Shown: piece by piece, positions 36,338-60,600 of the stretch
How positions within the stretch are numbered: the first letter of the stretch is position 1
Layout of the letters: each line of letters opens with the position of its first letter
Virus record (IMG/VR): IMGVR_UViG_3300042332_001447
Span: 31,774-95,773 of that record
Length of the DNA: 64,000 nt
Source of the DNA: a virus
Strand: one strand, 5' to 3'
Made by a program: the position numbers and the translations under genes
Notes under the pieces: model-generated
The model's input: the letters and a program-made list of their open reading frames with translations, nothing else
The model's database searches: none
What the model was told of the DNA's origin: nothing

Positions 36338-38104
36338 TTACGGAGTATATGTATATACAAAGCTTCCGCAGTCGTATATTTTTCTGTAACCGTTATTATA
36401 CATAATTTGTGTCTCTGTAAGATGTTTGCTAGATTCATCGCATATTTTATGTTTTTGAAACTTAACCCTGTGAAAAAGATTTACTGTATCATTGGTGTAC
36501 CAGTAGTTCGGTGAACTACAATGAGATAATGTAAAGCCTAGTGTGCTATATAAATTACCGTTTGAGTATCTTCTATCAGCATAAGATATGACTTTTTTAG
36601 GTGTATATGTCTTTATAAAAAATTGAAACAGCTTCGATGCACCTCCAACAGTTATCGTATTCAAAGTATTACAAAAACGCAAAAGTTCCATTTCTGGTGC
36701 TTTTGATGTAATTTTTCTAGCGCCAAATGTCATAACAGCTACGAGTTCATCTTTATAATAAAGACCTAAATTTATTTTTGACGCACAATCTCCTTGGATA
36801 TGGTTAGTTACAAGAAATTGTTCTTTAGTGAAATTATCGAGAGCTTTTATATGGCAATTTCTTGCGTATATTTTTCTATCAATAACGCCTAATTTACTTT
36901 TAATAACAGATTCTACAATAGGTCTTTTATCTAACCATTCATTTTCAAAAACATGTATTAGCTGTATATTTTTTTCAAGACATAGCACGGTTTTATTTAA
37001 GTGGCTCTTTTTATTTACACTTTCGAGATACGAGTTGTTGGGGTATGTAGTACCAAAACTATGCCATAAAATACCGTTATATTCAATAGCTAATTGTTTT
37101 TGAGGTACTAAAATATCTAATTCTTTTCCGTTTAAAGTGGTAGTATCGTTCTCAATAATATTGAAACCTAAACTTTCTATAAATGCACATATTACTTTTT
37201 CTTCCCTTGATATCCCTTTATCTCCATAGCACCCCGAGCAATAAATATCTTTCCACCTAGCATTTGTGAGTGTTTTTTTGTGAACTTTTTTACATACATT
37301 GCACTGTAATGTAAAAGTGGTGTTTTTTAAACAACTAATATCTTCACTTAAAACAGTGAAATTTTGTTGTTCTATATTTTCAATAATGTTTTTGGTGAGT
37401 TGTTTTATTCTTTCTTTGTTACTACTATTTTTTCTATAACCGGTTATAAAATTATTAAAAACAGCTTTTTGCCCATTGTTGCTTGAACATAAAGGAGGTT
37501 CTATTTTATACTTTAATAAATAAAACCTCTCGCTCCAATTTACATCTTTCAGGTCTTCAAATTTAAGTAAGTAATGCTCTGTATAATGTAAAAGCGAGCA
37601 CAAAATATCACTATGTGCGGTTTTATCTTTTACGTTAATAAAATTCGATAATCTCCCAGTATCCGTATCACGGATTTTCTTATCAACAAACTCTTCTACA
37701 ATCTCTCTTGAAAGTAACGTGTAATGCGAGCTTCTATAGCGACAGAGTAGTTTTTTATTAATATCTTTAATATTTTCTTTCTTATTAAACGATATTTTTT
37801 TATTTCTTTCTTTGAAGTTTATAACATGTTTACTGTTTTCTCTACCGCTTACAAAAGCATATCTTTTTACGCTCGGTAAAAATTTTAAAGGTTGCTTTGT
37901 AACCTCACATATAGGTAGATGTGTTATATTTTCTCGAATACAAAATACTCTCTCTGAAATTGATCTATCTGCAGGGAGAAAGCTAGTAGCATCTAATATA
38001 TCTCTATATAGCTTAGATGCTCTAAACCACTCTCTACGAATTAGAGCGGTATTTACTTTACCAGTTTTTGTTAAAATACAACGCTTAATATCATCTAAAA
38101 GCAT
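36338..38104 (-). CDS. EDxHD (Vsr-like) homing endonuclease, free-standing
   Basis: A 588-residue endonuclease. Residues 60-90 hold a short module (HLPICEVTKQPLKF, then YAFVSGR), likely DNA-binding. Cys 268, 271, 289 and 292 form a zinc finger. Residues 300-350 form the nuclease core (REEKVICAFIESLGF, KELDILVPQKQLAIEYNGILWH), the pattern of the I-Bth0305I/EDxHD group related to Vsr. The C-terminal 200 residues form a conserved domain (KINLGLYYKDELVAVMTFG, LLRFCNTLNTITVGGASKLF, VISYADRRYSNG). It is inserted between tail tube and sheath genes, back to back with a related endonuclease. Its start codon lies in a perfect palindrome. Confidence 0.8.
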   Translation of the reverse strand: MLLDDIKRCILTKTGKVNTALIRREWFRASKLYRDILDATSFLPADRSISERVFCIRENITHLPICEVTKQPLKFLPSVKRYAFVSGRENSKHVINFKERNKKISFNKKENIKDINKKLLCRYRSSHYTLLSREIVEEFVDKKIRDTDTGRLSNFINVKDKTAHSDILCSLLHYTEHYLLKFEDLKDVNWSERFYLLKYKIEPPLCSSNNGQKAVFNNFITGYRKNSSNKERIKQLTKNIIENIEQQNFTVLSEDISCLKNTTFTLQCNVCKKVHKKTLTNARWKDIYCSGCYGDKGISREEKVICAFIESLGFNIIENDTTTLNGKELDILVPQKQLAIEYNGILWHSFGTTYPNNSYLESVNKKSHLNKTVLCLEKNIQLIHVFENEWLDKRPIVESVIKSKLGVIDRKIYARNCHIKALDNFTKEQFLVTNHIQGDCASKINLGLYYKDELVAVMTFGARKITSKAPEMELLRFCNTLNTITVGGASKLFQFFIKTYTPKKVISYADRRYSNGNLYSTLGFTLSHCSSPNYWYTNDTVNLFHRVKFQKHKICDESSKHLTETQIMYNNGYRKIYDCGSFVYTYTP

Positions 38105-38185: not shown

Positions 38186-40045
38186 ATGGATATAGTTTTA
38201 TGTAGCTTACAAAATAAAGAGCTTATTTTAAGTTTAAGACTTCAACACCCTAAGCATTACGTTAAGTTTATAAAAATGAAACATCAAGTATTATGGAGAG
38301 ATGCGTTATGCTATAATCAAGTGCTCTTTAAAGATACAGACATGTTCACTGCTCCTCATATATTATACAATTGGATATTTAATATACAAATAATACCGCT
38401 CTGCCCAGTTAAGCAGACACCGTTAAAATTCCACGACAGGTTATTTGAATATAGAAAATTTAGCGGCCGTGGGATATTCACTGAAGAGTTTGTTGCATCT
38501 AGAATGAAAACAAGAACAAGGTTTCCAAATTTTAAAGAAAGATTTAAAGCAAAAAGAGAAGAGTATAGCTGGGATGATGAGTATAAGGAGATCGCGAAAA
38601 AAACAATCACTACGCTTTTGCACGAGAAGAATGATAATATAGGTGGCGTATGTGCAATTATAAAAACGACAAAAAATGCAAAGCTTTATTTTTTCTTAAC
38701 AGAAACATATTTCGACGCCAATACTCTTACGGAGTGTATTTACAGGCTTGTGAATGATATTGAAAAACTTCCTTTGTGTCAATATACACAAAAACCTCTA
38801 AAGTTCATAAATTTCAATAAAGGCTATAAATCATATGACGTAACTGCTGTTATTGAGTATAAAGCAAGCAGAAAGAAAGAGAGAATTGCTTTGGGTATTT
38901 TGCTTTCTAAAGAGGAGACACGTAAGAAGTTAAAGGAAATACTAGAGAGTTGCAAGGAAGCTGGAATGAGTGCTAGAAACTTAAAACAAACCGCACTATC
39001 ACACGACCCTAGCGTTGTGTACTCAGTATACGAACATACAAAAACACTTTCAACTCTCACAACTAGATGGGCTGAAAGAGCGTATACACTTCTGCATGAT
39101 TACGATCCATCTGAAAAGAGGCAGCGGTTTATTTCCTTTGAAGATGGTTATTGTGACACATTCACAAGTGTTAATAGTTCTCGAGGTGAGAACGAACTGG
39201 CTGATTGGCTGCAAAGTGTTTGTATTAATAGAGAGATAAGCAGACATGAGAGAATCTTGAATGGTATGGAGATTGATATACTCATTGAAAATAAAATAGG
39301 GTTTGAATATCACGGGGAGTATTTTCATAATTTTGAATTCAAAGGTAAAGATTATCATAAACAAAAAGCTGATTTAGCTCTTTTAAATAACGTAAAACTT
39401 ATTCAAGTCTTTGAAACTGAGTGGTACAATAAGAAAGATATTGTGAAGTCTATTCTATTATCTAAACTCGGTATCATACAACAGAAAATATACGCAAGAG
39501 AGTGCTCTGTGCAAGTATTGGATACAGATATTAAAAACAGTTTTCTACAGGAAAATCATATACAAGGTCAAGATAGAGCTTCGGTTAATTTAGGCCTTAT
39601 GCACAAGGGTAACTTAGTTGCCTGTATGACATTCGGTAGAGGTTACATGGAAAAAGATAATTCAACCGAGTTAGTGCGATTCTGTAATAAGCTCAATACT
39701 ATCGTTGTAGGTGGCGCAAGTAAATTACTTCAGTCATACATAAAGACATACAAACCTTCAAGTATTTTTACGTATGCAGACAGAAGATACTCAAACGATA
39801 GTTCGTTTTACGAGCAACTAGGCTTTACACGAACCGGTCAGACAGTGCCAAATTATTTTTACTTTAAGCCAGCTTTACCACAGTATATGAAGCTCCAGCA
39901 CCGTTATAATTTTGCAAAACATAATCTCAGTAAAAAACTTATGTATTTTGATTCAACACAAACAGAATATCAGAATATGAAAAATAACGGCTATTTTAAA
40001 ATATACGATGCAGGTAGCTACAAATATATTTTAGAGTTAAACTAG
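38186..40045 (+). CDS. EDxHD (Vsr-like) homing endonuclease, free-standing, second copy
   Basis: A 619-residue paralogue of the divergent 588-aa endonuclease. It carries the N-terminal module twice (IPLCPVKQTPLKFHD with KFSGR; KLPLCQYTQKPLKFINF). The nuclease core reads SSRGENELADWLQSV, NGMEIDILIENKIGFEYHGEYFHNF, LIQVFETEW. The C-terminal domain is conserved (ASVNLGLMHKGNLVACMTFG, LVRFCNKLNTIVVGGASKLL, FTYADRRYSND). The zinc finger of the other copy is not seen. Its 3' end overlaps the end of the sheath gene by 9 bases. Two divergent related nucleases at one site suggest a duplication or successive invasions. Confidence 0.8.
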   Translation: MDIVLCSLQNKELILSLRLQHPKHYVKFIKMKHQVLWRDALCYNQVLFKDTDMFTAPHILYNWIFNIQIIPLCPVKQTPLKFHDRLFEYRKFSGRGIFTEEFVASRMKTRTRFPNFKERFKAKREEYSWDDEYKEIAKKTITTLLHEKNDNIGGVCAIIKTTKNAKLYFFLTETYFDANTLTECIYRLVNDIEKLPLCQYTQKPLKFINFNKGYKSYDVTAVIEYKASRKKERIALGILLSKEETRKKLKEILESCKEAGMSARNLKQTALSHDPSVVYSVYEHTKTLSTLTTRWAERAYTLLHDYDPSEKRQRFISFEDGYCDTFTSVNSSRGENELADWLQSVCINREISRHERILNGMEIDILIENKIGFEYHGEYFHNFEFKGKDYHKQKADLALLNNVKLIQVFETEWYNKKDIVKSILLSKLGIIQQKIYARECSVQVLDTDIKNSFLQENHIQGQDRASVNLGLMHKGNLVACMTFGRGYMEKDNSTELVRFCNKLNTIVVGGASKLLQSYIKTYKPSSIFTYADRRYSNDSSFYEQLGFTRTGQTVPNYFYFKPALPQYMKLQHRYNFAKHNLSKKLMYFDSTQTEYQNMKNNGYFKIYDAGSYKYILELN

Positions 40046-42398: not shown

Positions 42399-42986
42399 CT
42401 ATGCGTCGGTCAGATGCTTAACGTCAAATTGACTGTACTGTAATGTGAACTCTGAGTCCATTACACTATTTTCCCTATAGTTATAGTTAATACCGCCTAA
42501 ACTAGTAATAAAACAATAATAATAAACAAACTCTACAACCGGGGCATTATACTCGTTAAGGCCAAAAACTGACACGTTTGTTTGATACTCCACCATATCA
42601 TCACTACCTTTTAATGACCCAGAGCTTCCAGCGTAATTACTCTCTCTAGGTGTATTTAAAACTGATAACCACTTCCACAAATACCAGTAATTATAAAACG
42701 TGTTATCTACAACAAATTTTACATTTAATGGCTCGTAATTAGGTCTCGTGTGACTAGATACATTATAAGTCTGACCACCAAAAGGAACTTGTATGGCTGG
42801 TACTTGTATAGATGGTACTACGGAGCCAAATACGCTAATCTGTAGCGGATCAATATTTAATTTTTTATTATCAAAAATTTTATGTCTTATAAGTTCAGGT
42901 ACATTTAAAACCAATAAAAATTTATCAGTACTCGGTCTATTGAGTACTGATTGCTCTGTTGGGTTCGGACAAATACTTTCAGACAT
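42399..42986 (-). CDS. 19: Tail tube protein, gp19-like
   Basis: A 195-residue protein next to the sheath gene. The N-terminal DKFLLVLNVPELIRHK, VVPSIQVPAIQVPFGGQTYNVSS, PLNVKFVVDNTFYNYWYLWKWL and the C-terminal VVEFVYYYCFITSLGGINYNYR, DSEFTLQYSQFDV fit the tube-fold pattern of T4 gp19 (163 aa). I use ATG at 42986; a TTG two codons upstream is also in frame. Two further tube-like proteins are encoded at 34891-36282. Confidence 0.7.
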   Translation of the reverse strand: MSESICPNPTEQSVLNRPSTDKFLLVLNVPELIRHKIFDNKKLNIDPLQISVFGSVVPSIQVPAIQVPFGGQTYNVSSHTRPNYEPLNVKFVVDNTFYNYWYLWKWLSVLNTPRESNYAGSSGSLKGSDDMVEYQTNVSVFGLNEYNAPVVEFVYYYCFITSLGGINYNYRENSVMDSEFTLQYSQFDVKHLTDA

Positions 42987-42997
42987 TATCAATATAC

Positions 42998-44539
42998 TTA
43001 TTGCAAAGGCACGTAACCTAAAGATAATAACTCTTCCATATCTTGATCTGCTTGTACTTCAATTTTAGATAACTCTTCCGGTGTTATTAACCTTTCGTGC
43101 TTACTTTCAGTAAATGTGTTATTAGGATCTGCAATATGGTTCTCAACTAAGTGACCGACTATATACAAATTCGGGTCTTTAGTATCATATCCATTAGATA
43201 AAATTTTTAAAGGTTTTTCCTGAGTATCATGCTCAGCAATTTCAAAATACTGTTGACATATTTCTGACTCTAATATAAACAACGCCCATACAGTTGCCAT
43301 TACTTTATCGTCAGTGTACGTGTCATTTTTCTTGCGATAAGTACCGTTTGGATAACGGATAAACGTTTCAAGTTCTTTAATAGTGTCCATGTCGTTTATG
43401 CTCACTACCTGTAATGTATTCATCCAGTATCGCATATTAGCAACACTTGCAAATCGCATATTATTATGACTCAAGACTCCTAAGTGTCTTGTGTTTGACA
43501 TAGAACCTGTGCTTGATAGCTTTGAACAACTTACTATTTTTTCATACATATGCTTATGAAACATAGTATCTATAACCTGCCCTCCACAGTTATTTCTCTC
43601 TATAAGCAAAGGTGGTTTGCCCCATTGATTGCAAAGAAAGTTTAATTTATTTGCAAAATGATACGGTTCAACGACATTAGTGCTATATACAGCCACTTGC
43701 TTAATATCTGTTAAATCGGTTACATCTAGTACCTGTGCCACTGAAAATGCTCTACCTATGCCTTCTCCTACATCGACTCCTATAACATAGAGACTTTGCG
43801 GTGACGGTTCTTCAAATACTTGATAACAACCTTCTTCACCAGTCCATATAGGTTTTTTATGCTGTTCTTTAAAACGCTCTATAACCGAAGCGCCTATTGC
43901 AGAGTTATTAATATCTGTAAACTGGTTGCCAAATTCTTGTTGAAAACTTTCTTCAGAACCAAGAGCACTTATCATCTGTTTTTTCCACTTATCGGTTCTA
44001 TCTGGTACATCCCACCAATCAATGCGCTCTGCAGTCCACCCGTTTGCGTTCTTTTCAGCCTCGGAATAAATCTCATAAAATTTATTACCGACTCCATTCG
44101 GGGTACTTACCATAAAAATTTTTGTTTTTTTACCTGAAGAAACAATAGGTATAACAGACTTCCAAAATTCTTCAAGAAGATGTGTATTATGTTGTAAGAT
44201 GTTATTTGCAAAATATGTATGCGTGTCTTTTACGTTCTTAATATCATAAACAAAGTCTTTTTTAAATTTGTTAATGCTTATTACTTTTGAAAATCCGCTT
44301 TTTGTTGAAATGTTACGATTTAGACTATTTTTACAAAAAATTCTTTCACCGTTTTCTCCTATAAAAGCGTGAGTACTTGTACACTTAACAGATTCTCCGT
44401 TCTCTGTTACCACAGTGTATAATTGTTTCTTTTTTAGCTTAATAATCCCATCGAAAGATTTCCATCCTTGCGGGGTCTGTATCTCCCAATCCCCTGTGTT
44501 TAGAGCAGTTTGTAAAATATCGTCATATGGTAGTTTCAT
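42998..44539 (-). CDS. 17: Large terminase, C-terminal gene: split intein C-part plus ATPase end and nuclease
   Basis: A 513-residue product. Residues 1-118 are the C-part of a naturally split intein: block B-like VKCTSTHAFIG, then VYDIKNVKDTHTYFANNILQHN, with Thr119 as the +1 residue. Residues 119-513 are the TerL extein: coupling motif IFMVSTPNG, then the RNase-H-like nuclease with VIGVDVGEGIGR, LLIERNNCGGQVIDT and TDDKVMATVWAL. The nuclease cuts concatemeric DNA at headful packaging. Trans-splicing with the upstream product would yield a 601-aa TerL (T4 gp17 is 610 aa). Confidence 0.9.
   Translation of the reverse strand: MKLPYDDILQTALNTGDWEIQTPQGWKSFDGIIKLKKKQLYTVVTENGESVKCTSTHAFIGENGERIFCKNSLNRNISTKSGFSKVISINKFKKDFVYDIKNVKDTHTYFANNILQHNTHLLEEFWKSVIPIVSSGKKTKIFMVSTPNGVGNKFYEIYSEAEKNANGWTAERIDWWDVPDRTDKWKKQMISALGSEESFQQEFGNQFTDINNSAIGASVIERFKEQHKKPIWTGEEGCYQVFEEPSPQSLYVIGVDVGEGIGRAFSVAQVLDVTDLTDIKQVAVYSTNVVEPYHFANKLNFLCNQWGKPPLLIERNNCGGQVIDTMFHKHMYEKIVSCSKLSSTGSMSNTRHLGVLSHNNMRFASVANMRYWMNTLQVVSINDMDTIKELETFIRYPNGTYRKKNDTYTDDKVMATVWALFILESEICQQYFEIAEHDTQEKPLKILSNGYDTKDPNLYIVGHLVENHIADPNNTFTESKHERLITPEELSKIEVQADQDMEELLSLGYVPLQ
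44186..44539 (-). other. Split intein, C-terminal part (TerL)
   Basis: 118 residues from the ATG to Asn118, including the block B histidine and blocks F and G ending in QHN. The partner N-part has only 35 residues. A very short N-part with block B in the C-part is the atypical split known from the AceL-TerL-type inteins of environmental phage terminases. Confidence 0.85.
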
Positions 44540-44648
44540 TATAAAAATTAAAATCTTTTTCGGTTATAAGTTTGTAGTTGTTGTTATTATTACATTCCTC
44601 AGTGAAAAATTTTATTATTTCTACTCTTGCTTTAACTCTATCAAACAT
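44523..44648 (-). CDS. Small frame between the TerL halves (41 aa)
   Basis: The ATG at 44648 follows the stop of the TerL N-gene by one base (TAA-T-ATG), and the frame ends 17 bases inside the intein C-part gene, in another frame. The product begins MFDRVKARVEIIKFFTEECN, which looks like a helix. It may couple translation of the second half or be the stub of a lost endonuclease gene. It could also be chance. Confidence 0.3.
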   Translation of the reverse strand: MFDRVKARVEIIKFFTEECNNNNNYKLITEKDFNFYNETTI

Positions 44649-44649
44649 A

Positions 44650-45798
44650 TTACACTTCCCTCGTATTAAGATCGACAAACAAATGTTCTAAACTAATTGT
44701 TTTTATTTCTTGAGTGTATTTATTTTTTATAACTACTTCGGAATCTCCAGCCAAGCAATCAATAAACGCTGCTTCGTCTATGCAATTATGAATCAAGATG
44801 TTATTAGCAAAAAAATAACCAGTATCTGTATTAACAACATCATAAACCCGTATTGGAGGGTTATGCTTCTGTTCTGAAACACTAATTACACTATCCTTAC
44901 CAGATGTTGTTAGTAGTACATCGCTTAATTTAACGTTCTTTGCTTCGACCCATTCATCTAATTCGCATACATAAATCTTGTGCTCTGGTGTTACGGAGAT
45001 AGTATTACCGTTTGTAGTTTCGATATTAATAAAGGTATCTGATTCCCCAGTGCATTTTATATCTTGAAAATTAATAAACCCGTTTCGAGATTTTATTTCG
45101 TAGAGTTGTTTATCTTTTATTTGCAAGCAGCTCTCTTCTATAGTCGGTTCAAAAATTTCGTTAGTAATTTTATTTCTAAGCATTAGCTTAGCATCTCCAC
45201 GTACACACAAAATACTTGCCGTATCTCCACGGGCAGCTGTCGATGTTGTTGTGCTAATACCTATACTGGAATCATTATCAAATGTTACACCTGTTTTTCC
45301 GTATTCTTTAACCCCTGGTTTTAAAAAATTAGGTAAAAGCTCGTATGCAAGTCTGATCTTTTTAAAAATTTTAATAGCTGTATTTTCATTATTAGCTACA
45401 ATAAGAGCTCTTTGATCAGCTGAAAAGCATGTGCTCCATAACGTATATACAGTTAGAATTGTTGACTTACCGCATTGTCTAGAAGCTAACAATACCACAA
45501 ACCGGTTATTTGCAAGTGAACGTAATGCCTTTTTTTGTTTAGGGTAAAGCTTAATTGTTTCTTTACCTCTATCAATATTAGTTATAGTAAAATATTTTTC
45601 AGCAAAATAAACTATATCCTCTGTACATCTTTTAAGCTCCTTAACCATCGCGGGTGTCCAGGTAAACTGAGCATCTTCCTTTGGTATTTTTTTATCTCCT
45701 CTATAGTATTGTGCATCATCTACAGGCTCTAATATAATACTATCTGCAGAATGCTCTACAGGTGCGCTTTGAATAGCGTTTTTACGCGGTCTCCCCAT
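44650..45798 (-). CDS. 17: Large terminase, N-terminal gene: ATPase part with one mini-intein and a split intein N-part
   Basis: A 382-residue product. Extein residues 1-197 carry the TerL ATPase front: KLYPKQKKALRSLANNR and Walker A LASRQCGKST (104-113). Residues 198-338 are a contiguous mini-intein (Cys198 to His337-Asn338, +1 Cys339). Residues 339-347 (CIDEAAFID) are the Walker B extein. Residues 348-382 are the N-part of the split intein (CLAGDSEVVIKNK). The ATPase drives DNA into the head. Both splicing reactions are needed for a complete Walker B region and nuclease. It lies 2 bases after the 122-aa gene. Confidence 0.9.
   Translation of the reverse strand: MGRPRKNAIQSAPVEHSADSIILEPVDDAQYYRGDKKIPKEDAQFTWTPAMVKELKRCTEDIVYFAEKYFTITNIDRGKETIKLYPKQKKALRSLANNRFVVLLASRQCGKSTILTVYTLWSTCFSADQRALIVANNENTAIKIFKKIRLAYELLPNFLKPGVKEYGKTGVTFDNDSSIGISTTTSTAARGDTASILCVRGDAKLMLRNKITNEIFEPTIEESCLQIKDKQLYEIKSRNGFINFQDIKCTGESDTFINIETTNGNTISVTPEHKIYVCELDEWVEAKNVKLSDVLLTTSGKDSVISVSEQKHNPPIRVYDVVNTDTGYFFANNILIHNCIDEAAFIDCLAGDSEVVIKNKYTQEIKTISLEHLFVDLNTREV
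44653..44757 (-). other. Split intein, N-terminal part (TerL), 35 residues
   Basis: Starts with Cys348 right after CIDEAAFID and ends at the TAA stop. Block A (CLAGDSEV) is present; block B is missing and lies in the partner encoded at 44186-44539. Confidence 0.85.
44785..45207 (-). other. Contiguous mini-intein in TerL (141 residues)
   Basis: Block A is CVRGDAKLML, block B is SVTPEHKIYV, blocks F/G are VYDVVNTDTGYFFANNILIHN, followed by Cys. No endonuclease domain is present. It is inserted directly before the Walker B aspartate segment. Confidence 0.9.
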
Positions 45799-45800
45799 AC

Positions 45801-46169
45801 CTACTCTCCACCATTCATTATTGAGAGAAACGTTGTTCTTAAATGTTCTATTAAAGAATCTCTAGCTGCTGGAGTAGATGCATGTGAAATGCAGATTTTT
45901 TCACCGTTAATATCGTACCCTAGAATCATAAACGTCTGCAAGTATTCTGCAACGATAGTATCTAAGTGTTGTAGATCGTGTATCTTACTCTGTTTACCTC
46001 TCGATGCTTCATAGAAACGGGTTAGTGCTTGCTCTATGACATCATCTATTTGCTTTTGTACGAAAGGAGCAGTAGTTACCGGTTTTACTGGGTTTACTGA
46101 TTTAACGGGTCCGTTAGTTTTACGTACACGGGGTTTATTTTTTTTCGGTGTTTCACCTTCTGTTGGCAT
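45801..46169 (-). CDS. Protein of unknown function upstream of terL (122 aa)
   Basis: A 122-residue protein. Residues 1-35 are basic and disordered (KKNKPRVRKTNGPVKSVNPVK). The rest is helical (QIDDVIEQALTRFYEASRG, HLDTIVAEYLQTFMILGYD). Its place next to terL would suit a small terminase, but the gp16 pattern is found in the protein at 24344-24865 instead, so I leave this unnamed. CATAAATA lies 13 bases upstream of the ATG. Confidence 0.55.
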   Translation of the reverse strand: MPTEGETPKKNKPRVRKTNGPVKSVNPVKPVTTAPFVQKQIDDVIEQALTRFYEASRGKQSKIHDLQHLDTIVAEYLQTFMILGYDINGEKICISHASTPAARDSLIEHLRTTFLSIMNGGE

Positions 46170-46211
46170 AACTTATGTCAAATATTTATGTAACTTATTC
46201 ACTTAAACAAG

Positions 46212-47741: not shown

Positions 47742-48797
47742 TTATCTTATTAGAGATTTATAAACATCAAGCGTTACTCCAGGTTTGAAACCATCTTCTA
47801 CTCCCTTTACTATCACTGACACTGCATCATGAGAGTGTAGAGATTCTAGATGCGAACACACTACCTTGAAGTCTTTAATGCGTTGATCGTTGTTAAGTTT
47901 TTCGTAGAGCAGTCTTGCCGCGTCTTCGACAAATTTGAGATTAGAACCGTTAAGCTCTGCAAACGCTTGCTCGTCCTCTCTCTTAACGATTACTTGAGTC
48001 TCTGTTTTAAGAGCACTCAAACAAATTTCTTGAAGATCTTCGATCCAAAGCATATCTTCAAATAAAACAGATACTCTTGCAACTGATCTCTGGCTATGTG
48101 AAACTACTGCTCTATTTCTATATTTTGATGCATGCTCTCCTAACTCATAGCTGCACGGGCACGCACTACTATACACAAAATCAAAATGTATATATTTTTT
48201 AAAGTTGTTATCTCTCAACCAATCTCCTTCAAGCGTTACTGAGTAGTACTGATACCCTGAATTACCTGAACGCAGTGACTTCTGAACAATGGGGTAAGAA
48301 ATGTTCAGCATAATTCTCGCATCAAAAACATCGAGACGATCTTTATAAGCTTGTAATACGTCTTTAATTTTATCGATGCAAAAAATATGATCTTTAAACT
48401 CGTAAAAAGATCTCATAATACGAGACATATTAATACCTTTCTTGTGAGATTCCAAAGAAACAGTGCCTGTAATGCTTGTTTCTAAATCTAAAAACGAACC
48501 AGTTCTCGTACGATATCTGAGTGGTAGCTTAAAGTTGTTAATACCGACTTGTTGTATGGGTACCGGTGCTCCGCAGATTAGCGAGCTCGGACCATTCTGT
48601 AAATCTGGTAACGACTGCAAATACTTTTCAGTTACTTCTAATTTATCATCATATATTCTAATAGGGGGTATATATGTATCCGCATAAACTGAGGTAGTGC
48701 ATTGCTTGGCTAGCTTATCTTTTTCAGTGTTGTTTGCAAATTCATGTTCATCTTCCAACCAATCGTAGGTGTTTTTATTTGGCATGTTCATACTCAT
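47742..48797 (-). CDS. folE2: GTP cyclohydrolase IB (FolE2)
   Basis: A 351-residue enzyme that converts GTP to 7,8-dihydroneopterin triphosphate, the first step towards folate and 7-deazaguanines (preQ0/preQ1). Family motifs are clear: GTVSLESHKKGINMSR (residues 111-126), SACPCS (211-216), HSQRS (234-238), and ESLHSHDA (318-325) with likely metal ligands. Length fits the long FolE2 forms. It sits 6 bases after gp32. With queF and the dpdA-like gene on the same strand, it most likely feeds a DNA-modification pathway. QueD, QueE and QueC are not in this window. Confidence 0.9.
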   Translation of the reverse strand: MSMNMPNKNTYDWLEDEHEFANNTEKDKLAKQCTTSVYADTYIPPIRIYDDKLEVTEKYLQSLPDLQNGPSSLICGAPVPIQQVGINNFKLPLRYRTRTGSFLDLETSITGTVSLESHKKGINMSRIMRSFYEFKDHIFCIDKIKDVLQAYKDRLDVFDARIMLNISYPIVQKSLRSGNSGYQYYSVTLEGDWLRDNNFKKYIHFDFVYSSACPCSYELGEHASKYRNRAVVSHSQRSVARVSVLFEDMLWIEDLQEICLSALKTETQVIVKREDEQAFAELNGSNLKFVEDAARLLYEKLNNDQRIKDFKVVCSHLESLHSHDAVSVIVKGVEDGFKPGVTLDVYKSLIR

Positions 48798-50761: not shown

Positions 50762-51283
50762 CTATTTATCAGCTAGAGATTCGAGTACCGATTCCGCAGA
50801 ATTAACTGCAGAGTCAGGTGAATCGCTCGCAAAATAATCAGGATTCGTTTCCTTTAGTGTTAGTGTTTCATATTTTACCTTAAAAGCGCAATGCCCGAAA
50901 TTAGCTCCAAACCGATTTTTCTGCATACCGAGATTAATAATACCTAACTCTTTCTCTTGCTCTTCCTGCCACAAAGAGCATATTACGTCGCATGTAGCCG
51001 CAAGTCCAATTGAATTTTTTGTAAGTATATCATTACAAAAGAATAGACTATCACCTGTAACAGAAATATCTATAGTCTCCATTTCTCCGACAGGTTCTAT
51101 ACTAACGATCTCGTCATTATAATCAATAGACTTATCGGTTATAGCATTTTTCTCTTCTTGTTCTTCAAGAATTTTCGCTGCGACTTCGATGTACTTTTCT
51201 TTGTCTGTTTCTCTATCAGCTAATCCTAGGTTTTGCAGAGCTTCAAACCTATTATTTAAAAAGTGAATAATTTTCTCGTTCAT
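50762..51283 (-). CDS. 41: Replicative helicase gp41, C-terminal gene: split intein C-part plus helicase end
   Basis: A 173-residue product. Residues 1-90 are the C-part of a split intein: an unusual helical extension of about 55 residues, then EIVSIEPVGEMETIDISVTGDSLFFCNDILTKN, with Ser91 at +1. The residue before Asn90 is Lys where nearly all inteins have His. Residues 91-173 are the last part of the DnaB-type helicase (SIGLAATCDVICSLWQEEQE, then GMQKNRFG). Spliced gp41 would be 449 aa (T4: 475). The start is 1 base from the stop of the N-gene. Confidence 0.9.
   Translation of the reverse strand: MNEKIIHFLNNRFEALQNLGLADRETDKEKYIEVAAKILEEQEEKNAITDKSIDYNDEIVSIEPVGEMETIDISVTGDSLFFCNDILTKNSIGLAATCDVICSLWQEEQEKELGIINLGMQKNRFGANFGHCAFKVKYETLTLKETNPDYFASDSPDSAVNSAESVLESLADK
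51014..51283 (-). other. Split intein, C-terminal part (gp41)
   Basis: 90 residues. The last 36 align in pattern with the gp41-8 intein C-part (SIEYVGVEETIDINVTNDRLFFANGILTHN in memory; only short phrases compared). The N-terminal 50 residues are extra. The penultimate His is replaced by Lys. Confidence 0.85.
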
Positions 51284-51284
51284 T

Positions 51285-52655
51285 TTAAGAATTCCTTGTG
51301 TTTAGTTTAGCACCAATCTTAAGACCGTCTTCTACAGATAATCTTCCATCAGATGTCGGGAATTTGTGTTTGGAGCTAACTATAATTTCTTTTCCAGACT
51401 TCAATTTAAGTTTATAGCATAATTTAATGTTTCTGTGATGAACTTGCGTAACAGTCTTGTAACCGTCATGTGAAGTGATTTGATCTCCGAATTCAACATC
51501 TCCAATTTTCTTTTTTGTACCGTCTCGAAGAGTTATCATTTGATTAACCTCAATACACTCTGAAATACCCTCCATACCCGGATTAGCAGTATTAAAGGAG
51601 CTCCTCGTTAATTGGCTTGCAGTTACAAAGGGAATGTTGTACTTAAAGGACAACGCTCTAAGTTGCTCCGCTACCTCTTTAACGGACTCGTATGAGTTTA
51701 AGTTTTTAGATGAGGGTTTTAAAAGATTAATATAATCAATAACTACAACCTCTGGTTTAAAACCTCTATGGCCTAATTTTGTTATATAAGCATCAATGTG
51801 TCTAACAGTTATAGTTTTTGGCGGATACTCTTTAATTACAAGTTTACTCTCAAGCTGTCTTTCAACATGCTCTACTTGCTGTTTAAGTTCGTCGGTATAT
51901 ACGCTCAATTGATTATGTGGTATCTGTGTAACCTGTGCACTTATTCTTTTGGCGTACATAAACTCAGACATTTCAAGCGAGATGAGTAAGACGTTGTGGT
52001 TTGCGAGTACCATATTAGCTGCAATATTACCTAAGAAAATACTCTTACCTACGTTAACTTGCCCGACAAGACAAGTTAACGTTTTTGGAAATAACCCGCC
52101 TTCGAGTCTTTCATCTAAAAACTTCCAGCCTGTTGGAAGTGGGTTATAAACAGTCGTTAGCTCTTTTATGTGTCTTTCAATATCTTCGAAATAAAAATAA
52201 CCTAAATCTTCAACTAACGAGATATTGTATACTTTTTCAAATTGAGATAGAGTTTCTTGTAAATCTATTTTACCCGATGTGTATTTTTCTGCAGCTTCAT
52301 TAATAGCTTTTACTAAGCTTCTTTCTTTTAAGAACCTCTCTGTATTTGCAATTAATTCATCTTTATTAAAATTAGTATCAAGTTGCTTTAATTTTAAACC
52401 GACATCTGTAAAAGCTTTTTTTTCATTTTCAGTTGTTAGTCTTGACTTAATTTCTGTTAACGTGGGCGGTGCACCACGCTCTAAGAAAAACGAAATAATA
52501 GAATTAAAAACAATACCTATATTTTTGTCATTAAAATAACTAGGATCGAGATGCTCAATTACGCACGCTAAATATTCTTGATTTAAAAGCGAATTAAGAA
52601 GTATGACATTTTCATAATAATCGAGATCTAATTTACTCGGTTCAGTGTTTGTCAT
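51285..52655 (-). CDS. 41: Replicative helicase gp41, N-terminal gene: helicase core plus split intein N-part
   Basis: A 456-residue product. Residues 1-366 are the DnaB-like helicase: N-terminal helical domain, PLPTGWKFLDERLEGGLFP, Walker A GQVNVGKS (198-205), SLEMSEFMYAKRIS, Walker B VVVIDYINLL (303-312), and TASQLTRSS. Residues 367-456 are the split intein N-part (CIEVNQMITLRDGTKKK; block B VSSKHKFPTSDG). gp41 unwinds DNA 5'-3' ahead of the fork. The insertion is in the GISE/SIGLAATCDV motif, the site used by the known gp41 split inteins. Confidence 0.92.
   Translation of the reverse strand: MTNTEPSKLDLDYYENVILLNSLLNQEYLACVIEHLDPSYFNDKNIGIVFNSIISFFLERGAPPTLTEIKSRLTTENEKKAFTDVGLKLKQLDTNFNKDELIANTERFLKERSLVKAINEAAEKYTSGKIDLQETLSQFEKVYNISLVEDLGYFYFEDIERHIKELTTVYNPLPTGWKFLDERLEGGLFPKTLTCLVGQVNVGKSIFLGNIAANMVLANHNVLLISLEMSEFMYAKRISAQVTQIPHNQLSVYTDELKQQVEHVERQLESKLVIKEYPPKTITVRHIDAYITKLGHRGFKPEVVVIDYINLLKPSSKNLNSYESVKEVAEQLRALSFKYNIPFVTASQLTRSSFNTANPGMEGISECIEVNQMITLRDGTKKKIGDVEFGDQITSHDGYKTVTQVHHRNIKLCYKLKLKSGKEIIVSSKHKFPTSDGRLSVEDGLKIGAKLNTRNS
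51288..51557 (-). other. Split intein, N-terminal part (gp41), 90 residues
   Basis: Runs from Cys367 to the stop codon. Block A (CIEVNQMITL) and block B (IIVSSKHKFPT) are present: the canonical split position, as in gp41-1, gp41-8 and NrdJ-1 inteins. Confidence 0.88.
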
Positions 52656-52660
52656 GTGTT

Positions 52661-53377
52661 TCAGATCTCTTCTACTTCTTCTTCAATCTCCTCGACTTTG
52701 GTAGTATTTTCGCCGTAACAAAGCTTTTCTTGTAATGTTTTTTCAAGCTCTGGCATTATCTTCTCCCAGAACGCTGGATCTTTTTCTAGATCTTTTCTAT
52801 ACCCTAGGCTCTCACCTTTATACATTACAGTTCTACCTGGTTTTTCTATAACACTAAACGCTTCTGCAATTTCAAATAACCCGGCATGCTTATCTAGACC
52901 AGATTTAAAATTAAGATATAACTCTGTCTTGAGATAAGAAGGAACGAACCGGTTTTTAACCGTAAGAGCTCCTAGAGTTACACCTGAAACGTTATGTGCA
53001 ATAGCGATAGATTGTTCGTCTGGATTGTCACTAGCTTTTTCGTTCTTAGTGCTAAGCTGCACTAAGACTGAAGCAAGATATATTGGTCCTTTTCCACCGC
53101 TTTGTGTTTTAACTAAAGTAGGAAACATCTCCATACCCTCGTAAATATGGTTACTAAAGAGAATAGGTACCTTAGCCTTGGCTGCCTTGTAAGTAAGTGT
53201 ACGCATCATTGATTTACAGTTATGTGAAACAATACTGCTATCCGTAATACAGAACGTACTATCATCTTCTACACTAATATCAATTAGATCTTCATCAATA
53301 TCAATTTCACTGATATCGTTTATGGTAAGGTACTCGTAATTATCTTCCGCAAAAATAAATTCGTTGTTTGGATTCAT
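52661..53377 (-). CDS. uvsX: Recombinase UvsX, C-terminal gene: split intein C-part plus UvsX end
   Basis: A 238-residue product. Residues 1-53 are the split intein C-part (DEDLIDISVEDDSTFCITDSSIVSHN), and Cys54 is +1. Residues 54-238 are the second half of the RecA-like recombinase (CKSMMRTLTYKAAKAKVPILFSNHIYE, GGKGPIYLASVLVQL, FVPSYLKTELYLNF) with an acidic tail (KVEEIEEEVEEI), as in T4 UvsX. Spliced UvsX would be 371 aa (T4: 391). It has its own promoter-like sequence, because a terminator separates it from the N-gene. Confidence 0.9.
   Translation of the reverse strand: MNPNNEFIFAEDNYEYLTINDISEIDIDEDLIDISVEDDSTFCITDSSIVSHNCKSMMRTLTYKAAKAKVPILFSNHIYEGMEMFPTLVKTQSGGKGPIYLASVLVQLSTKNEKASDNPDEQSIAIAHNVSGVTLGALTVKNRFVPSYLKTELYLNFKSGLDKHAGLFEIAEAFSVIEKPGRTVMYKGESLGYRKDLEKDPAFWEKIMPELEKTLQEKLCYGENTTKVEEIEEEVEEI
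53219..53377 (-). other. Split intein, C-terminal part (UvsX), 53 residues
   Basis: Blocks F and G (LIDISVEDDSTFCITDSSIVSHN) end directly before Cys54. The first 25 residues are an acidic, Tyr/Asn-rich extension that could pair with the basic N-part. Confidence 0.87.
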
Positions 53378-53508: not shown

Positions 53509-53540
53509 AAACCGGTTGATTTTTAAAAATCAACCGGTTT
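53509..53540. terminator. Strong hairpin terminator between the UvsX halves
   Basis: A 32-base perfect inverted repeat (arm AAACCGGTTGATTTTT). On the minus strand it is followed by a T-run and GTTGG, as in a factor-independent terminator placed just after the UvsX N-gene. It could also work on the other strand. Confidence 0.8.
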
Positions 53541-53560: not shown

Positions 53561-54397
53561 TTAATTACTCAATTTAACAAGTTTATCTGATGGTTTAATA
53601 TGTTGAGCAACTACATATTGTAGTTGCTTGTTACGCTGAACAAGCATTTTATGATTCTTAGACATAACGATTTGCATACCGTTAACAGTTAGTTTTATAG
53701 CTTTACTATGTTTCGTCTTCCACTTATCTGTTACAGTCTTGTATCTACCAAGATGTGTTAATACTTTATCCCCTGTATTTACGTCTGCAATTCTCTTCAT
53801 ACCGCTTTCGGTTTGCACTAATGTATCCGGGTGCAAGCATGCTTTAGCGCGCTGCCCAACATCTGCTGCATCCTTACCGGCTGATGCATCTCTAACCTCT
53901 TTTGCACTTGCTAGATTACCGAGCGAGTCAATAGCTACAATAAATTTAAGATCAGGGTTTGTTTCTCTCGCTTTAATTACGTTATCAAGGAACACGCACA
54001 TCTGGTTACGGCAATCTTCAATAGTCTCTACTGGATAGTACTTAACTCTCGACGTATCCATTCCTGCTCCTTGTGCGCTTTTCTTATCTACTGCTACCTC
54101 AGAATCCCAAATAACAGGTATATAACCTATCTTCTGAGCGTTAGCCATAATCTTATTCATGATAAGAGTCTTACCAGCCATACTCGGTCCAGCGAACCCT
54201 GTAATACGACCAGAAGGAATACCTTTATAGAGAGATCCTGAAATAATTGCATTTAATGCGTAAGAGCTAGTGTCAATCCATTCATCTGCTGTAGAGAGTG
54301 TTGCAGCATCAAGTACTGCTGCGTCTGGATTGAGATCGTCTACAGATTTAAAAATATCTTTAAGACCGGATAGTTCGTTTTTTGTTTTTGGTGCCAT
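53561..54397 (-). CDS. uvsX: Recombinase UvsX, N-terminal gene: RecA core plus split intein N-part
   Basis: A 278-residue product. Residues 1-186 are the first half of UvsX: RITGFAGPSMAGKT with Walker A at 70-77, VIWDSEVAVDK, IVAIDSLGNLASAKEV (Walker B and loop 1), and DVGQRAKA. Residues 187-278 are the split intein N-part (CLHPDTLVQTESGMKR; block B IVMSKNHKMLV). UvsX makes the presynaptic filament for strand invasion and recombination-primed replication. The split lies within the loop 1 to loop 2 region, so the halves cannot work separately. Confidence 0.92.
   Translation of the reverse strand: MAPKTKNELSGLKDIFKSVDDLNPDAAVLDAATLSTADEWIDTSSYALNAIISGSLYKGIPSGRITGFAGPSMAGKTLIMNKIMANAQKIGYIPVIWDSEVAVDKKSAQGAGMDTSRVKYYPVETIEDCRNQMCVFLDNVIKARETNPDLKFIVAIDSLGNLASAKEVRDASAGKDAADVGQRAKACLHPDTLVQTESGMKRIADVNTGDKVLTHLGRYKTVTDKWKTKHSKAIKLTVNGMQIVMSKNHKMLVQRNKQLQYVVAQHIKPSDKLVKLSN
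53564..53839 (-). other. Split intein, N-terminal part (UvsX), 92 residues
   Basis: Runs from Cys187 to the last codon. Blocks A and B are both present, with a basic body (KWKTKHSKAIKL) complementary in charge to the acidic C-part extension. Confidence 0.88.
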
Positions 54398-54887: not shown

Positions 54888-55796
54888 TTACTGTCTCGGC
54901 ATTTTAAAAAACGGCGTTTCCGGGGTTTTCAAAAATGACGGAATCATACTCTCACTACTAGCTCGTACCGGGTTAATATCCAGACTACCACGTCTCACGT
55001 AGAAGCAACCTACAAAGAGTTCTTCTGCCTCATATACTTCTTTTAAGCGAGCGTAAAAACATTCACAAATTTCTTCATGAAAATGGCACTCATTTCTAAA
55101 GCTTATAATATACTTTAAAAGGCTTTCTGGATCAATATTATGTTTTGTCGTAATACTAATATATACATCCCCAGCGTCAGGTTGATTTGTAACTCGGCAA
55201 TTCGAACGAAGCAAACTACTGCAATAGCGCTGATTAATAGCAGCCCCTATATTGTCTTCAGTATTAATAGTTTTCAACAAACTAGGTGTTTCATTATACG
55301 TTTCCGTAACAAGTTTACTATTAATTAAATCGATATTCTTAAACGTTTTAAAAAATACATCACTATCTGTAGACGGGTGTTTAGCAGCTGTAAAAATTTT
55401 AACAACCACATCTGTTTCAAGATAATCAGACAAATCTTTACTCGAGGTATTTTCAATATTTTTAATTACATCTGCTGGCGTTTTACCGAAACGCGACATA
55501 TTAAAAGAGTTAAAATATAGTTTTGCTGACTTAGATTCAACAATATATTTACTACTACATGGATACGTGATCTTAGCAATACCCGTTACTGGTAACCCAG
55601 TATCTGTTAGCGCACTAATCTCCCAGTTATTCCAAATATCAATACCGATAAAAGGTAAATTATCATCCTTAATATTGAGATACTCTCTGTTATTTGCACG
55701 CTTCTCTCTTACGAGGATACTTTTATCATACTGTTTTGGTGCATCAACTCGTTGACCTAATACTTTGCTTATTTCTGTGTTATCTAATTTACTCAT
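54888..55796 (-). CDS. queF: NADPH-dependent 7-cyano-7-deazaguanine reductase (QueF, long type)
   Basis: A 302-residue enzyme of the YqcD type (E. coli QueF is 282 aa). It reduces the nitrile of preQ0 to the aminomethyl of preQ1. Motifs: KITYPCSSKY and the QueF motif ESKSAKLYFNSFN (residues 87-99), catalytic Cys200 in RSNCRVTNQPDAGDVYI with Asp207, and FRNECHFHEEICE (233-245). The gene overlaps the kinase-like gene by 4 bases. It ends the row dpdA-like, formyltransferase, kinase-like, queF, so preQ1 is the expected intermediate for DNA modification. Confidence 0.92.
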   Translation of the reverse strand: MSKLDNTEISKVLGQRVDAPKQYDKSILVREKRANNREYLNIKDDNLPFIGIDIWNNWEISALTDTGLPVTGIAKITYPCSSKYIVESKSAKLYFNSFNMSRFGKTPADVIKNIENTSSKDLSDYLETDVVVKIFTAAKHPSTDSDVFFKTFKNIDLINSKLVTETYNETPSLLKTINTEDNIGAAINQRYCSSLLRSNCRVTNQPDAGDVYISITTKHNIDPESLLKYIISFRNECHFHEEICECFYARLKEVYEAEELFVGCFYVRRGSLDINPVRASSESMIPSFLKTPETPFFKMPRQ

Positions 55797-57695: not shown

Positions 57696-60600
57696 TTACA
57701 TTCCAAATAAGTCAAATAAATCTGTCTGTACTTCTCTAGAAAAATTAGGCATTCTCCATTCAATCGCTTCGTAAACACTTTCTACTGGAGCAGCTACTAT
57801 TTTTTCAAACATCTTATCATAATCAATTTTTATAAGATCTCTAAATTCTTTTGGATACTCTGCTACGAAAGCTACTGCATCAAGGTTGTGCGCATTCTTT
57901 ACAGCGTAAAAATACTTTATTTTTTGACCGGAGTTAATTTTTTCATACTTACTTTGTAAGTTGTATTTTTCAAGTAGGAGATTGTATGCAATAGCTGCCT
58001 TTACGTGACAAGGTGTACCTTTTTCAAATTTACTCAATGAAGCAGTTTTACTGTATTTTTCATAATCTTTTACAGCTCTACGAAACGAAGCATCTTGTAT
58101 ATCGAGATGCTTAAACTCCTCGTAAGCTTCTCTAAAGATTGCATTGGTCTGTTTTACATCTTTTGTTAGAAACGCTGTCTCAACAGTCTTTTTAATAAGT
58201 TCTTTTACTTTTTTTGGAGTTGTCGATCTTGCTATCTCCACTCCTACGTATTTAAACTTATTAACTGCTATACCTTCATCATCTAGTACTTGAATAATAT
58301 AGCGCTTTTTCATTAAAAACGCTCCTACTCCTGCTATTGCTTCTCTTTTAAATTCAAATCTCGGATCTATAGAGTTGAGCTCTTCTCTAGCCCATTTAAG
58401 AATCTCTGTATTAACAACCCTATCCAAATCATCCACTACTTCGTGCGCCTCTTTTGATACTACACTAGTCTCGTCTGTTAATTTAATACCGAGTTTTTTG
58501 AGTATAGGGGTAATTGTGATATAACAGGAATTGTGTACAAGTATGTCGTTTGCAAAAAATGTATGCTCTGTTTCGTCTTGCATCTCTAAATCATAAACAT
58601 ACTCATCTTCAAACTCCCCTATGTATTCTACTACAGTAATATCAGTTATTTCGTATTGCTTATTGTCGCATGTATTTTCCCTAACAACTATCATCTTGTC
58701 CGTCTTAATATTAATATCTTTAGGGGACACTCTTATTAGCTTACTGTCTCTAATTACCATACAACCGTGATCCTCGGTCATAATCACCTCTTTACCGTCA
58801 ACCACTATTCTATATTTCTTTTTAGATACTTTATGTCTTATTATATTTTTCACTCTACCTTGAACAACCTGCTCTGTTACTGAATTGTATGTTAATGCTC
58901 GGACATTATTATCTTGAACGTCTATGATTTCGTGTCCATGGTGAGTTATGTTTTTTCTATTATCTTTATAGTTTTCGTATAAAATTTCTATAGATATCTG
59001 GCCTTGATTTGTTCTTATAAGAGTTTCACCAACTACAGAATCGGTATCTCCGTATACGACAACATCTTCCGCTATACCATATTTATTAATAGCATATTGT
59101 CTAAGAATGTCAGATCCAGCTCTTGCAACTGCTTGTCCTGTGAGAGTAATAGATGAGGCATTATCAATATCCATAAACGGCGAATGCTTGTTTCCGAATA
59201 CCCCGAAAATCGAGTTAAGTAGAATCTTTAACGTGTACTGAAGTGTATCGTAATAGATAATAGAATCCTGTGTCTCTTTATCTTTTTTCTTTGAAAGCTC
59301 AAGCTCTTTCATCTTCTTTTTTGCTTCAACTCTCTCCGTATAGATCTTATTAATCAAGTTCGGGCAAACCCCTTTAAACTTCTGTGAATATAATACTCCA
59401 GCTTTAGAAACCGCAATTTTTTCTTTTTTTATAAATTCTTTAAACTTCTCTGTGCTAATACCCGAAACTTTACCGTTAACAAGCTTTATTTCAATTTTTT
59501 CGTCTTTCTCGTAATCACCTGTAACTATCTTTCCAAGCTTTGTCTCTGATGAGATGTTAAGCGTAATAATAACGTTAGGGTATAGTGAGTTTACGTCAAA
59601 GCTTACAATGCTCTCGTGTAAACCTCTGACCGGGTCTCTTACAAAGCCACCGGCTAGTGGGTCTCTAATCTCATCATTAATAAATGTAGGTATTACATAT
59701 TCTTGTTCGCTTGCTTGCAATGACATTGCACCAGTTACAATAGCGATCTTACCTAAAGCTGATTCAAAATTCGTACATCCTTTATATGCCAATAATCTAA
59801 CAATGTTGAGGTAGTTTAATTTCTCATCAAGTTTAATAAGAAGATTTACGTCTTGTATGTTGTAGTCTACAAAATTCTCCCAATCTGTTTCAGCTAAATT
59901 TGAAAGATTGGTGGCGTTAATTGCTAGTTTTCCTTCCTTAAGCTCATACTCAGAAATGTAGTTAAGAGAATATGATTCTCTATCTCCTTTTGAGAATTTT
60001 TTATATAACTCCATATAATCGATACAGCTAATACCGTGTATATTCCACTTACCCGTCTCTTGCCCGAATTCGTTTCTAAACTCTCTATAATGTAATTTTT
60101 TTAGAGGTGATAGCTGATTAATAAAATCATCATTTAATAATTTTCTACCTCTATTGATAATATACGGTATGTCAAAGTTGTTTGAATTCCACCCGACAAA
60201 TACATCTGGTGGATCAGCTTTCCAAAAATTCATGAATTTTTCAAAGAGTTCACTTTCAGAATTACATCTATGATATCTAACGTTAGAGGATTTAGGTGTA
60301 TATTCTTTCTCGACACCCCATGTATCAATCTGATTGTTTAGAGAGTTATAAACCGTTATAAGAATAACGGGGTCCTTAGCTTCCTTAGGAACGGGAAATG
60401 AGGTTGGTGAAAAAGTTTCAATGTCAAAATAGTATACCTTTAAAGGAAACTTACTAAAATCTTTACTATGTACAGTGTCTCTGTACATGTCAATTAAAAA
60501 TTGTTGATCTGGTGGTAAATTTCCGAAAAAACGTTTTCTGCTAGAATCTTTTACAAACTTACTACGCTCAAAGCTATTTCTAAAGACATGCTTCTTAAGA

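Follow-up and report, generated by a model that had tools for sequence, protein, structure and literature searches.

A large terminase encoded in two pieces around a predicted atypical split intein, with a candidate endonuclease scar between the halves

We analyzed a 64,000-nucleotide stretch of viral DNA (positions 31,774 to 95,773 of the IMG/VR record IMGVR_UViG_3300042332_001447; hereafter the window) in which the gene for the phage large terminase, TerL, is divided into two open reading frames (ORFs) by a split intein. The enzyme is very probably made as two pieces that are rejoined by protein trans-splicing, and the split very probably arose through insertion of an endonuclease gene that was later lost in frame. 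Two inteins are involved. Intein 1 is contiguous and lies within the first gene. Intein 2 is shared between the genes, with its N-terminal part (IntN) ending the first and its C-terminal part (IntC) opening the second. The features of the locus are listed below in window coordinates; relatives are identified by L numbers.

44650..45798 (-): TerL-N gene, 382 aa; from ORF reading and intein models
45208..45798 (-): TerL extein 1, 197 aa, ATPase domain with Walker A ASRQCGKST; colinear with the uninterrupted TerL of L004, L005 and L006
44785..45207 (-): intein 1, contiguous cis mini-intein, 141 aa, Cys1...His-Asn/Cys+1; Pfam Intein_splicing 5.9e-8, TIGR01445 2.1e-7
44758..44784 (-): 9-residue extein CIDEAAFID (Walker B) between the two inteins
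44653..44757 (-): IntN of intein 2, 35 aa, residues 348-382, CLAGDSEVVIKNKYTQEIKTISLEHLFVDLNTREV, then a TAA stop
44523..44648 (-): orfX, 41 aa plus stop, candidate endonuclease scar; from endonuclease profile matches and junction geometry
42998..44539 (-): TerL-C gene, 513 aa; from ORF reading
44186..44539 (-): IntC of intein 2, 118 aa, ending QHN, +1 Thr; from motifs and intein models
42998..44185 (-): TerL extein 2, 395 aa plus stop, remaining ATPase domain and nuclease domain

The terminase gene pair and its intein-free counterparts

A first-pass annotation had proposed that the first gene stops 35 residues into an intein, with block A only, and that the second opens with 118 intein residues containing blocks B, F and G before a Thr at +1. 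Both ORFs proved to be laid out in this way. In the TerL-N gene, extein residues 1-197 are followed by intein 1 (198-338), a short extein (339-347) and IntN (348-382). IntC carries block B as TSTH, block F as FVYDIKNVKDTHTYFANNI (VYDIKNV..YFANNI) and block G as QHN. Residue 1 of intein 2 is Cys, the nucleophile of inteins, and G25, H57, D99, N112, H117 and N118 are invariant across 18 aligned intein sequences. Pfam Intein_splicing (PF14890) and TIGR01445 (intein_Nterm) match the TerL-N gene with the values listed for intein 1, and the TerL-C gene at 1.4e-6 and 1.1e-4, respectively. The window IntN is 41% identical over 27 aa to that of Campylobacter phage CP39.

Intein 1, which the annotation had overlooked together with the probable endonuclease remnant and two further split genes, is inserted at SIL|CIDEAAF, before Walker B. 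Because it ends 9 residues upstream of intein 2, Walker B is flanked by inteins on both sides. The annotation's figure of 601 aa for the spliced extein is exactly the sum of the exteins, and it holds only if the second, complete 141-aa intein (residues 198-338) is removed too. Intein 1 is homologous to intein 2 (34% over 107 aa, E 7e-10), and this homology and the proximity of the two would favor a cross-reaction between the N-part of intein 1 and the IntC of intein 2. Such a reaction would yield TerL without Walker B, a counterpart of exon skipping at the level of protein, and might serve as a regulatory switch. Lacking the catalytic Asp-Glu of Walker B, that product should be inactive; intein 1 would also be expected to splice faster in cis, and there is no sign that the cross-reaction is used. 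We consider it highly unlikely.

Intein-free relatives supply the uninterrupted form of the enzyme. L004, a 4.1-kb IMG/VR contig, encodes a TerL of exactly 601 aa in which both intein sites are empty, as they are in L005 and L006. The L004 protein matches T4 gp17 structures at 1.7e-54, which through this relative places the window enzyme among the T4-type large terminases. Window extein and L004 TerL align over 601 codons with no insertion or deletion and differ by 130 silent and 27 replacement changes, giving a ratio of nonsynonymous to synonymous divergence (dN/dS) of 0.04. The window branch is not accelerated, with a dN to the outgroup L006 of 0.092 compared to 0.098 for intein-free L004. 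At the splice points only the +1 residue is replaced: it is Thr (ACA) in the window and Val, Ala or Pro in the empty alleles, as a Thr+1 nucleophile requires. A co-conversion tract near the insertion sites was also sought in the L004 comparison. Because identity is high and even along the gene, we draw no conclusion about co-conversion beyond the changed +1 codon.

No other terL was found in the 95,773-bp record, and this result is limited to that record because its completeness is not stated. The halves could also stay unspliced, either as decaying pieces of a pseudogene or as two polypeptides that associate without being joined by a peptide bond, as with nrdA/mobE; an endonuclease-split ribonucleotide reductase does work as two polypeptides, according to passages in PMC10448857 and PMC3322345. 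Yet every catalytic residue of the intein is retained, the extein combines its low dN/dS with the absence of indels, and the break parts Walker B from the remaining ATPase and leaves intein on both new ends. We therefore regard unspliced halves as very unlikely. In the trans-splicing mechanism that we favor, intein 1 would excise in cis from the N-piece, and the 35-aa IntN would dock onto the 118-aa IntC of the C-piece to form one HINT domain. This domain would join the Asp that follows AAFI to the Thr of THLLEEFW and release the 601-aa TerL. Judged from the gene structure, packaging would depend on this reaction.

The insertion site in relatives and the candidate endonuclease scar

A pattern search for HN-THLxxEFW in viral contigs returned 12 contigs with an intein at the same site, some of them near-copies, and the pattern scan of the genome collection for such relatives returned none. 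The site exists in several states. The intein is contiguous in L025/L027/L029 and in L032. It is split, with a 387-403-aa endonuclease gene between the halves, in L007/L031, L024/L033, L026 and L030, and Pfam recognizes a TnsA-like nuclease in the gap genes of L007 (3.9e-9), L024 (2.8e-10) and L030 (1.7e-6). In L022 and L023 it is split with no gene between, and terL-C starts inside the terL-N stop (ATGA overlap). The N stop and C start of the window fall at the same point as in the independent contigs L007, L022, L023, L024, L026 and L030. In the intein tree, L007 (split, with endonuclease) is sister to the unsplit L032 with support of 100/99. The tree neither recovered the THL-site inteins as one clade nor excluded them as one, and the closest partner of the window intein was unsupported.

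Divergence between relatives bears on the mobility of these elements. Between L024 and L026, the split intein parts and the endonuclease are under purifying selection, with dN/dS about 0.15 for IntC and IntN and 0.18 for the endonuclease. Silent divergence (dS) of the intein and endonuclease is 0.4-0.5, far below that of the adjacent extein, where the proportion of silent differences (pS) is 0.74 and saturated; this suggests that intein and endonuclease moved together into terL genes that had already diverged. As many as four sites are occupied by inteins in the TerL proteins of L022 and L023, namely Walker A, either side of Walker B, and QEF|C. Their QEF|C intein has a dS of 0.14 and the flanking extein a dS of 1.24. 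Since the intein is nearly identical and the flanking extein is not, a recent transfer of the QEF|C intein is suggested. A search of viral contigs with the L007 endonuclease returned only its own contig, and no such endonuclease was found elsewhere in the window phage.

The 110-nt gap between the window halves is covered by orfX, which starts 1 nt past the terL-N stop and overlaps the start of terL-C by 17 nt. In L007 the corresponding distances for the endonuclease gene are 8 nt past the stop and 14 nt into terL-C, and it shares with orfX the same relative frame and the same AATGAA bases. We tested orfX with profiles built from four endonucleases, using 1064 ORFs of 30-60 codons and 5000 shuffles as controls. 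Residues 1-26 match the start of the nuclease with 11.4 bits, and residues 19-34 match its end with 13.0 bits (CNNNNNYKLITEKDFN compared to CDANNFEFKLITEKEIN of L007). None of the 1064 control ORFs reached either score, and among the 5000 shuffles four reached the start score and none the end score. The joint score of orfX is 24.4, and the best control of any kind scored 16.1. By its sequence, orfX is probably an endonuclease gene that was deleted internally in frame with both ends kept.

The same data bear on two other explanations for the gap. An assembly or sequencing error, in which one or two frameshifts in an ordinary cis intein mimic two genes, would be in keeping with a single metagenomic contig and with adjacent IntN and IntC parts from which no intein residues appear to be missing. 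When the three frames were read, however, rejoining the halves took two frameshifts and the insertion of 41 foreign residues, so that read-through in a single frame is ruled out. The break also stands where six independent contigs have it, and orfX resembles the endonuclease of those contigs; an error is extremely improbable. The second explanation is a self-splicing RNA intron that restores a single frame, for which the intron in terL of phage ICP1 offers a precedent (PMC10448857). Here the gap is only 110 nt, RNA removal would leave 153 intein residues in TerL, and an Rfam search of 42900-46200 with E up to 1 gave no match. The short gap and the empty search rule out an intron, to which we assign a negligible chance.

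The window pair was represented by the unsplit L025 intein from the same site for structural analysis. Its model (predicted local distance difference test score, pLDDT, 93.2) is a HINT domain that Foldseek matches to gp41-1 (4.8e-7) and VidaL (7.4e-6), and also to the RadA and Cat inteins. The model is least confident at residues 31-40, a loop that follows the first two strands and a short helix, and the break in the window and in the other split members falls there. On this model, an insertion in that loop should leave the catalytic core able to reassemble. Starting from an ordinary unsplit intein, a gene for a TnsA-like homing endonuclease, bringing its own start and stop codons, would have inserted in this surface loop, after the first two beta strands, and cut the gene in two. 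A later in-frame deletion would have reduced the endonuclease gene to the 41 codons of orfX, leaving a split gene reliant on trans-splicing.

Gene structure, intein motifs, empty sites, extein selection and homologous loci in every state were seen directly, and several points weigh against the account built on them. We infer the splicing activity, the order of splicing and the direction of the evolutionary steps. Both terL halves rest on a single assembly, and the record may be incomplete, so that a second terL outside it is conceivable. The insertion could be very recent, in which case the strong selection on the extein would be mostly older than it. As to the scar, orfX is short, each of its matches taken singly is weak (E about 0.02-0.07), the N- and C-matches overlap by about 8 residues, and four of the 5000 shuffles attain its N-score.

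Relation to known split inteins and split terminases

Atypically split inteins are cut near their N end, with an IntN of 15-37 aa, and are made as two polypeptides (PMC11766414, PMC10189870). Published IntN/IntC lengths are 37/115 for GOS-TerL, 25/104 for AceL-TerL and 30/104 for Cat (PMC11766414). Intein 2 of the window, at 35/118 and on two polypeptides, falls in this group and shares with AceL-TerL, GOS-TerL and Cat a T4-type TerL host, a short IntN and a long IntC. The joined IntN and IntC (153 aa) find CatC, an atypically split consensus intein, as their best PDB sequence match (E 1.7e-9), and a profile made from the inteins of this site matches the PDB sequences of CatC at 2.4e-18 and VidaL at 4.2e-10. 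The assignment to this type is thus supported by the 35/118 split, the CatC matches, the predicted HINT fold of the unsplit homologue and the intein-free 601-aa TerL.

The first-pass annotation had called the intein AceL-TerL type, and this stands for the kind of split. The AceL/Cat site has Cys at +1 and Glu at -2 and +2 according to a review (PMC11766414), by whose description the sites were compared; we found such a site in Serratia phage 92A1. The window intein instead lies after Walker B at AFID|THLLEEFW, with Thr at +1 and flanks ID|TH. Because insertion site and +1 residue differ, it is an intein of the same kind at another site and not an AceL/GOS allele. The window further differs from AceL, GOS and Cat in its second, cis intein 9 residues upstream and in the probable endonuclease remnant between its terL halves. 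The mycobacteriophage inteins TerL1-a to -e and TerL6-f have Terminase_1 or Terminase_6 hosts and in some cases an endonuclease inside the intein (PMC5050341), whereas the window has a T4-type TerL with mini-inteins, one of them split. The TerL of Campylobacter coli phage IBB_35 is interrupted by an intein and an endonuclease gene (PMC3322345), at a different site as judged from the related CP39 (FIDE|CAFID).

Other ARRANGEMENTS were seen as well. The TerL of Serratia phage 92A1 is divided at QEH|CAEF, and a GIY-YIG-like gene separates the two parts. CP39 (L010, L018) has its TerL split inside Walker B, with the pieces 24.5 kb apart on opposite strands; TerL-N ends in a 31-aa IntN, and TerL-C opens with a 100-aa IntC (HN|CAFID) and carries the annotation of an ordinary terminase subunit. 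The phages phiS and TB34 (E. coli Krischvirus) and Thanatos-2 (Shewanella) (L051, L052, L054) encode TerL-N, IntN and a TnsA-like nuclease in one frame and IntC with TerL-C in the next, and each half bears a terminase or packaging-enzyme annotation. L026 and L033 (reverse strand) divide TerL into three pieces or more, each separated from the next by a nuclease-like gene. The order is an N-piece with IntN, an endonuclease-like gene, a middle gene, a TnsA-like endonuclease gene and a C-piece. The middle gene consists of an IntC, the 11-aa extein CLVIDEMAFIE with its Walker B motif, and an IntN. L026 has a further IntN-like end at RQEF|CS with another ORF behind it. A three-piece terminase, if true, would exemplify serial trans-splicing in nature, with a middle extein of 11 residues.

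Other interrupted genes and neighbors in the window

A scan of the whole record with intein models yielded two further split genes and one cis mini-intein, which we list with their coordinates.

53561..54397 (-): RecA/UvsX-like N-half, canonical IntN at residues 187-278, 92 aa; Pfam RecA 4.1e-9, Hint_2 2.1e-6
52661..53377 (-): RecA/UvsX-like C-half, IntC 53 aa, SHN|CKSMMRTL
51285..52655 (-): DnaB/gp41-like helicase N-half, IntN at residues 369-456, 88 aa; Pfam DnaB_C 2.2e-25, TIGR01445 match
50762..51283 (-): DnaB/gp41-like helicase C-half, IntC 90 aa, TKN|SIGLAATCD; uninterrupted in L006 as MEGISESIGLAATC
58530..59039 (-): cis mini-intein, 170 aa, Ser1, Ser+1, in a family B DNA polymerase at YGDTD/S

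Both splits have canonical split points. Relatives match the RecA/UvsX-like N-half only up to residue 186-187, and 53 of the 62 that were fetched read through the site, the rest being cut off or missed by the simple pattern. The 183-bp gap between the RecA halves contains a perfect, terminator-like 16-nt inverted repeat (53509-53540), and in L070, which is split in the same way, this gap is filled by a 364-aa endonuclease-like gene. The helicase intein resembles gp41-1, and its IntC ends in Lys-Asn, not His-Asn, as it does in L201 and L164. Its site reads through in 41/70 fetched relatives (the remainder again cut off or missed by the pattern), and in L201 the split helicase halves enclose a 370-aa endonuclease-like gene. 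All three split genes of the window phage are in an endonuclease-free state, because the window is without the genes kept in the L070, L201 and terL gaps.

In fractured genes, reportedly described by Dassa et al. in 2009 (cited in PMC10448857), the two parts of a split intein are said to flank a free-standing endonuclease. At the window's terL site, L007, L024, L026 and L030 resemble them in keeping a free-standing nuclease gene between IntN and IntC, as do L070 for RecA and L201 for the helicase. The terL nuclease differs in being TnsA-like and in sitting at an atypical split point near the N end of the intein. The window itself differs in that the nuclease has been lost from all three of its split genes.

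Judged against the open-licence literature, the insertion site, the isolation of Walker B between inteins, the probable endonuclease scar and the set of states seen at this site are new. The origin of split inteins has so far been argued mostly from scattered end products. Here all the states occur at a single insertion site (empty, unsplit, split with endonuclease, split with scar, and split without any remnant), and two other essential genes of the phage are likewise split and endonuclease-free. This makes it possible to test directly in what order the events took place and what the split costs. We think it likely that TerL has become a naturally multi-piece, serially trans-spliced protein after repeated intein invasion, opening by endonucleases and endonuclease loss, with the window as the endonuclease-free end stage. 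The site also supplies new atypical IntN/IntC pairs (IntN of 28-35 aa, Thr+1) for protein semisynthesis.

Among the neighboring genes, the tail-tube gene that adjoins terL has a Pfam gp19 match. Two large ORFs adjoin the tail-sheath gene: that at 38186-40045 (+) resembles, by eye, a free-standing nuclease of the Vsr/EDxHD kind, and that at 36338-38104 (-) has a weak Pfam Mom match (1.7e-4). Both are possible Hef-type homing endonucleases. Genes of deazaguanine (queuosine-type) metabolism at 47742-48797 and 54888-55796 (-) encode a FolE2 GTP cyclohydrolase and QueF, and the DNA of this phage is therefore possibly modified.

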